From SAR202 cluster bacterium bin87 (GTDB taxonomy: Bacteria > Chloroflexota > Dehalococcoidia > Lucifugimonadales > UBA3495): a stretch of DNA of 64,000 nt. A model generated the notes under the pieces. It saw only the letters and a list, made by a program, of their open reading frames with translations, had not been told where the DNA came from and ran no database searches. This document shows, piece by piece, positions 51,411-52,500 of the stretch. The position numbers and the translations under genes are program-made. The stretch is from the NCBI GenBank assembly GCA_002238825.1, contig MPNC01000001.1, positions 434,001 through 498,000 of the forward strand. Reading direction: 5' to 3'. Position 1 is the first letter of the stretch, and each line of letters starts with the position of its first letter.

Positions 51411-52154
51411 TTACTCCGTCAATAATCGGTCAAGCCAGGAGTCGATCAGGTCGACACCGCGGGCTCCCGCGCTGACATGGGCGATACGGCCCTGCTTGTC
51501 GATGAACACGTAGCTGGGCACGCCCCTGATACCGTATGCCGCGGCCAGTTGCGCGCTCTCGTCAAACACGTTCGGGAAGGTCAGTTGATTACGTTCCACG
51601 AATGCGATCGTGGCTGCCTCAGTGGTATTGAACTGCGAAACCCCGATGACGTCGACGCCGGCAGCATCCAGTTTGTCCCGGTAGAGGGACGCTACGGCGG
51701 GCAACTCCCGCCCACAGTGGGGTCACCAGGGCGCCCAGAATGCCAGGAGCGTGGGCGAACCGTAGGCGTCCGGCAGGGAAAACTCCGAACCGTCCAGCAT
51801 CTGCGCGTTGAACGGTATCGCCGGCTGTCGGTCTTCGGTTGTGGCCTTGGTGGGCGTCGGCCAGGGCGTGTAGGTCGGTTGGGGCCGCGGTGTATACGTA
51901 GGCGCCGGCGTGTCGGTGGGAGGGACCGCGGTCGCCGTGGGAGTGGGAGCAGGCGGAGCCGTGGGATCCGCGGTCGGCAGCAGCGCTTCAACGGTGGCGC
52001 CGTAATCACCAGCCGGATTTTCGGCTGGCGTCCGGTTGCACCCAATCAAGGTGGCGCATACGGCTACAAGGATTGCGACCAGAACGAGATGATGCAGCGC
52101 CTGGTTGTTGGTTCGGCCCAGGATTGCGGGAGTGATGTGCATCCGGCGGTTCAT
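51411..52154 (-). CDS. TlpA/ResA-like thioredoxin lipoprotein with in-frame UGA (probable selenocysteine)
   Basis: A 247-residue reading frame containing one internal TGA (51723-51725) at codon 144. A signal segment ends in a lipobox (ATLIGC, Cys39), followed by a Thr/Pro-rich linker (about 61-103) and a thioredoxin-fold domain. The motif reads FWAPW-UGA-PHCGRELP, so UGA falls exactly on the first Cys of the CxxC active site and Cys147 remains as the partner. The fold continues in the same frame through GIRGVPSYVFID (cis-Pro loop) to a TAA stop. A SECIS-like hairpin follows. I read it as Sec144 in a UxxC redox centre. Alternatives are a point nonsense mutation or sequencing error. Confidence 0.8.
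51696..51725 (-). promoter_or_regulatory. putative bacterial SECIS element downstream of UGA
   Basis: After the UGA (51725-51723) the minus-strand RNA can fold a 6-bp all-GC stem (51712-51707 with 51701-51696) around the loop AGUUG (51706-51702). The apical loop starts 16 nt after the UGA and has G as its second base. This meets the bacterial SECIS pattern (loop 16-37 nt away, G in the first two loop positions), at the short end of the range. Confidence 0.6.
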
Positions 52155-52208
52155 GGCGCATCTACCCTAGCATATTTTGCGCGAGGCGGCACCGTGCGCC
52201 TTCGAACC

Positions 52209-52368
52209 GTAACTGTTCAGAGTTGCTGGGGAGGTGTCATTGCGAGCGCAGCGCGGCAATCTCGTTGATGCCGGGGGGTCCTTCAGGGCAGACGTTGCTG
52301 CTGCGATATCGAGATTGCCACGGCGCAAGCGCCTCGCAATGACAACCTCCTGAAATCTGAACAGTTAC
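52209..52368. repeat. 160-bp MITE-like palindromic element
   Basis: Outer inverted repeats of 13 bp (52209-52221 and 52356-52368) enclose an inner pair based on GTCATTGCGAG (about 52231-52246 and 52333-52349), then GCGGCAATCTCG with its complement further in. Only a core of about 45 bases is unpaired. The GTCATTGCGAG/CTCGCAATGAC motif is common in dispersed intergenic repeats of many bacteria. It has no transposase and could form a long cruciform or RNA hairpin. Confidence 0.75.
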
Positions 52369-52470
52369 TGCGAACCCGCAGGGCCTTTCGAAAGTCGTTG
52401 CGAAGAGCGGATCGAGGTGGCAATCCCGTCGCTGCAACCAGGCTTTCCCGTATGGGTCATATTCGCGAAG

Positions 52471-52500
52471 CGAGATTGCCGCGCTGCGCTCGCATTGGCC
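52471..52500. repeat. degenerate inverted half-copy of the 160-bp element
   Basis: This 30-base stretch matches the reverse complement of the inner left arm of the neighbouring palindromic element at about 26 of 30 positions. The region between 52390 and 52460 also has weaker similarity. It is probably a decayed second copy. Confidence 0.6.

Follow-up and report, generated by a model that had tools for sequence, protein, structure and literature searches.

Does the TGA that interrupts a thioredoxin-like reading frame in this stretch of DNA (64,000 nucleotides, hereafter the window) end translation, or does it specify selenocysteine (Sec)? The frame starts with an ATG at 52154, comprises 247 codons and contains this TGA as its sole internal stop. 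Taken together, the data presented below indicate with high confidence that the gene at 52154-51411 encodes a predicted Sec-containing TlpA/ResA-like protein.

51411..52154, minus strand: predicted TlpA/ResA-like selenoprotein gene, 247 amino acids with UGA read as Sec, stop codon TAA at 51413-51411; orthologues have an identical architecture.
51723..51725, minus strand: predicted Sec codon (UGA), residue 144, in place of the first Cys of the CxxC motif (U-P-H-C147); TGA in 11 of 11 same-genus orthologues.

A preliminary description of this DNA, which gave no strand, had placed a single in-frame TGA at the first Cys of a thioredoxin motif, with homology on both sides. Both statements hold for codon 144 of the minus-strand gene. 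The active-site motif reads FWAPW-U-PHC, and the match to PF00578 (AhpC-TSA) runs across the TGA (residues 110-226, E 3.9e-24, 85.4 bits against the Pfam cut-off of 26). The dN/dS ratio was 0.22 over the 35 codons that precede the TGA and 0.19 over the 103 that follow it; given these nearly equal values, the region beyond the apparent stop is selected as protein. Synonymous divergence was lowest around the UGA and the codons of the hairpin described below, with a pS of 0.32 over ten codons (+1 to +10) versus 0.59 further on.

The TGA is shared by close relatives. The order-wide sample comprised 197 genomes, 11 of them from the same genus, and all 11 carry the TGA form at codon 144. Orthologues at four loci (L029-L032) from Dehalococcoidia/Chloroflexota, with 76-79% identity, likewise all have TGA. 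The two sets overlap, as L031 is the contig of genome G138, with an equal length of 4,377,943 bases and the gene at an equal place, and L029 and L032 appear to be the same genes as those of G126 and G187, respectively, with identical domain and UGA-flanking sequences; only L030 clearly adds a different relative. Among the matches listed from other genera, almost all are without an internal stop, and the 19 that we inspected have TGC or TGT at this codon (FWASWCPPC and similar). This TGA/Cys variation bears out the replacement of Cys by Sec that had been proposed for this position. One match flagged with a TGA (L095) was rejected, because its active site has Cys (FWASWCPPC) and the TGA lies upstream of it. 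In a tree of 38 domains, which took in the listed best matches only, all 18 Sec forms grouped on the same side of a branch with full support. The tree shows one apparent Cys/Sec switch within the sampled domains, which is not the history of the whole family. A profile scan of viral contigs matched one distant relative. A lone nonsense codon in a 67-contig draft assembly might be suspected to reflect faulty sequencing or assembly, or a gene that decays after a premature stop. Either is virtually impossible: all 11 same-genus genomes share this TGA, as does the apparently distinct L030, and purifying selection downstream equals that upstream.

Directly after the UGA lies the hairpin that would direct Sec insertion.

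51696..51712, minus strand: SECIS hairpin GGCGGG-AGUUG-CCCGCC, supported by folding and by covariation including a four-way compensatory pair.

The preliminary description had stated that this hairpin follows the rules for bacterial SECIS elements, which proved correct and was strengthened by the covariation. The loop starts 16 nt from the UGA and comprises 5 nt, with G at its second position followed by U; the stem has 6 bp and the folding energy is -15.5 kcal/mol (45 nt). The hairpin thereby falls within every published bacterial-SECIS constraint (spacing of 16-37 nt, loop of 3-9 nt, stem of 4-16 bp, minimum free energy of at most -7.5 kcal/mol; PMC13188914), and our test for SECIS membership also required a G within the first two loop positions. 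Alignment columns 14 and 30, compared over 14 distinct sequences, pair as G-C (8), A-U (4), C-G (1) or U-A (1), with zero mismatches. The base in column 14 is the middle one of a Gly, Gln, Leu or Ala codon and column 30 is the wobble base of an alanine codon (GCN), so that their covariation is unexplained by protein selection. Where column 30 ends an alanine codon, the synonymous choice follows which amino acid is encoded five codons upstream, on the other side of the loop; the exception is L069, in which the codon is GTT (Val) and an A-U pair is still kept. Covariation lay above all 500 shuffles on three measures, among them the cells changed on both sides (7 versus 2.0 ± 1.1 in shuffles, 0/500 as high) and the covariation score (0.215 versus 0.073, 0/500 as high), and the signal vanished when the partner column was slid by 1-3 positions. 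Because shuffling leaves shared ancestry in, the argument depends mainly on the slide control and on the four pair types. Cys homologues have a weaker hairpin at the same place (mean score 9.7 versus 16.1, p = 1.6e-4, with rows that are related to one another). Of the 18 Sec-form sequences, two did not pass a strict hairpin scan, namely L093 and one gene of the L094 pair. An Rfam scan of the window gave no match at gathering thresholds.

A six-frame scan of the window with a loose rule returned 12 pairs of UGA and SECIS-like hairpin, of which the gene studied here alone lies at a recognisable thioredoxin motif. Two pairs with higher hairpin scores were set aside, as no recognisable motif was seen by eye around their TGA. 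Elsewhere in the window, a minus-strand frame at 1826 with a glyoxalase-like DPDGILVQF motif ends at a TGA, past which another open frame and a weak hairpin are found; this TGA is probably an ordinary stop.

The source genome (4.96 Mb, a draft assembly of 67 contigs, reported to be 100% complete) contains all four Sec genes that had been named in the preliminary description: selA (E 2.1e-163), selB (E 3.2e-105, above cut-off), selC, present as a single tRNA-Sec gene (anticodon UCA, 66 bits), and selD (locus L025, E 1.7e-111). The latter has one internal TGA in an HCAGU motif and is likely a further selenoprotein. Nine of the 14 AhpC/TSA-family matches in the genome contain one TGA, in every case at the catalytic position (motifs TSGU, WUPHC (two), GNUTR, WUPYC, CUVNC, TUPPF, WUPEC and WUPVC). 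The PF00578-family loci L099, L097, L098, L096, L002 and L007, with TGA at the catalytic position, are likely other selenoproteins of the same genome; at L099, on contig C16, two TlpA-like genes (WUPEC, WUPVC) lie side by side, with selA about 10 kb away. Counted by a search for the AhpC/TSA family and selD, the genome likely holds at least ten UGA-Sec genes from these two families. SelA scored above cut-off in 170 of the 197 order genomes, and both genome and order appear rich in Sec use. A genome-wide reassignment of TGA to Trp or Gly, which would turn codon 144 into a plain sense codon and could account for the many TGA-containing frames in the genome, has a negligible chance of being correct: at least four gene-like open frames in the window terminate at TGA, which therefore is not reassigned genome-wide, internal TGAs of the AhpC/TSA family are located only at catalytic Cys positions, and codon 144 is Cys in relatives, neither Trp nor Gly.

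The predicted selenoprotein can be divided into three parts.

52038..52154, minus strand: putative lipoprotein signal peptide with lipobox LIGC and predicted lipidated Cys39, read from the sequence by inspection.
51828..52037, minus strand: Thr/Pro-rich spacer of about 70 residues, read from the sequence; kept yet fast-evolving in orthologues.
51414..51827, minus strand: ResA/TlpA thioredoxin-fold domain with Sec144, Cys147, Glu150 and Pro213, from Pfam, alignment and structural model.

With a lipobox Cys after a hydrophobic signal, the gene product is a predicted lipoprotein. The lipobox reads IGC, TGC or LGC in the four closest relatives. Most orthologues show a recognisable lipobox-like motif, and the AlphaFold2 model contains a hydrophobic helix at residues 18-38. 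Signal and spacer are weakly constrained (dN/dS 0.36), and the pLDDT minimum lies within the spacer, at residues 41-60. The thioredoxin-fold domain was modelled with a pLDDT above 90 (overall mean 83.6), and the best Foldseek matches are ResA structures (rmsd 1.2-1.4 Å, target TM 0.87-0.93). Columns 144, 147 and 213 are invariant in 28 sequences when U is read as C, and Pro213 sits where the cis-Pro is expected. Glu150 lies three residues past Cys147 and presumably matches Glu80 of ResA; in a paralogous group, this position is Gln.

From these parts, a mechanism may be proposed. SelB bound to the hairpin just after UGA-144 would bring Sec-tRNA(Sec), so that the ribosome inserts Sec and does not stop. 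Judged by its sequence, the product would then be exported and lipidated at Cys39, with the thioredoxin domain held outside the membrane by the Thr/Pro tether. By the chemistry of the family, Sec144 would act as the attacking nucleophile of a thiol-disulfide exchange and Cys147 as the resolving thiol. Termination competes with SelB delivery at UGA codons in general, and it may be speculated that the UGA also acts as a selenium-sensitive switch, yielding a short lipid-anchored stub at low and the full enzyme at high selenium. The location of the UGA late in the frame, past anchor and linker, would fit such a role, but a stub that lacks the active site would serve no evident purpose, and its signal and spacer are weakly constrained, which makes a switch very unlikely.

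By analogy with its family, the protein probably functions as a thiol-disulfide oxidoreductase. A role as oxidase or isomerase of exported proteins, in which our confidence is about even, is somewhat favoured over that of a CcdA-driven reductase in cytochrome c maturation, because the catalytic pair encloses a DsbA-type Pro-His dipeptide and searches of the genus yielded no CcdA/DsbD. The CcdA/DsbD profile (PF02683), which matched in 10 of 14 controls, had no match in the organism's own genome (G000) or in 12 further same-genus genomes, and VKOR was not found in the own genome. It could be imagined that the genus uses the lipid-anchored UPHC selenoprotein family as an extracytoplasmic disulfide core that replaces CcdA/DsbD and VKOR, together with an undiscovered membrane partner, although we regard this as quite doubtful. 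A ResA/CcmG-type reductase that is fed by CcdA and serves cytochrome c maturation is rather unlikely as well. Both the closest NCBIfam score and the closest structures are those of ResA, and genes for cytochrome c assembly (PF01578) are present in the genome, but the score for ResA sensu stricto (NF002854) is 85.2 bits and thus below the NCBIfam cut-off of 170, the UPHC motif is DsbA-like, CcdA/DsbD is missing from the 13 genus genomes searched, and a Cys-type paralogue (L004) is encoded about 2.7 kb from a PF01578 gene. This TlpA paralogue (G000 C45:104646-108299, partly L004 and L101) is likely the cytochrome-c-maturation thioredoxin, though no CcdA/DsbD was found.

The gene is located between those for methylmalonyl-CoA mutase and a methyltransferase, which is followed by a MaoC-like protein, and this order is the same in four relatives. 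The region between the selenoprotein and mutase genes (52180-52500) is repeat-rich and resembles a small MITE: it contains inverted copies of CATTGCGAGCGCAGCGCGGCAATCTCG as well as a 16-bp inverted repeat (52209-52224 / 52353-52368). This stretch looks like an insertion, since the same gap measures only about 100-170 nt in the four relatives. Right before the ATG (52155-52180), an AAARTRTGCTA(C/G)GGTA-like block is conserved in these relatives and overlaps a candidate promoter element.

52169..52174, minus strand: possible -10 box TATGCT, seen by eye.

As this candidate box is so near to the ATG, the leader of the selenoprotein mRNA may be very short or absent (leaderless).

Selenoproteins of related kinds are already catalogued, comprising Prx-like, thiol-disulfide isomerase-like (cd02966), DsbA-like and UGC TlpA families (PMC13188914, PMC1088965, PMC2398784). 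The UxxC thiol-disulfide isomerase-like and Prx-like members share with the protein described here the thioredoxin fold, a PF00578/TlpA-like domain, Sec at the first position and a bacterial SECIS, the likeness to the cd02966 selenoproteins being one of UxxC motif and PF00578 domain; what sets it apart is a predicted lipoprotein anchor followed by a Thr/Pro spacer, the UPHC motif, and a lineage that goes unmentioned in those sources. The preliminary description had called a lipid-anchored Sec protein with such a linker unusual. Lipobox and linker are found in the four closest orthologues, whereas the UxxC TlpA/DsbA-type kind as such is not unusual. The ResA-like WAxxUGC selenoproteins of NF041054 (WAxxUGC_long) also have Sec in a ResA-like domain (E 9.7e-16), but with UGC instead of UPHC, and the match of 58 bits stays far below the cut-off of 300. 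ResA and StoA of Bacillus (PDB 1st9, 3c71, 3erw, 4nmu) have the same fold, catalytic pair, cis-Pro position and membrane anchoring, as well as the Glu three residues past the second Cys; in contrast to them, the protein has Sec for Cys, PH where these have EP between the two catalytic residues, and no CcdA partner that we could find. The Pro-His dipeptide is that of DsbA, and PDB 3c71 is, by its title, a ResA variant given the Pro-His motif. The pneumococcal surface lipoprotein Etrx2 (PDB 4hqz, E 4.6e-14) resembles the predicted product in its lipid-anchored extracytoplasmic TlpA-like domain, but is a Cys form. The partner of Etrx2 is CcdA2, a partner of the CcdA type that was not found in the genus studied here.

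The gene therefore adds to the known UxxC TlpA-like selenoproteins; new are its lineage, the predicted lipoprotein form, the UPHC motif and the setting with no detectable CcdA/DsbD (13 genus genomes) or VKOR (own genome). A literature search on sponge- and Chloroflexota-related selenoproteins and on those of SAR202 found no paper, and the string "Chloroflex" is not in the text of a 2026 review of prokaryotic selenoproteomes, nor is "Chloroflexi" in the GOS paper. In automatic annotation, a gene of this type would be expected to appear as two pieces, a truncated lipoprotein and an orphaned half domain. Its SECIS hairpin is a clear natural case of RNA pairing that ties synonymous codon choice to the choice of a neighbouring amino acid, and the gene represents a well-supported selenoprotein in Chloroflexota, a phylum unmentioned in that review.
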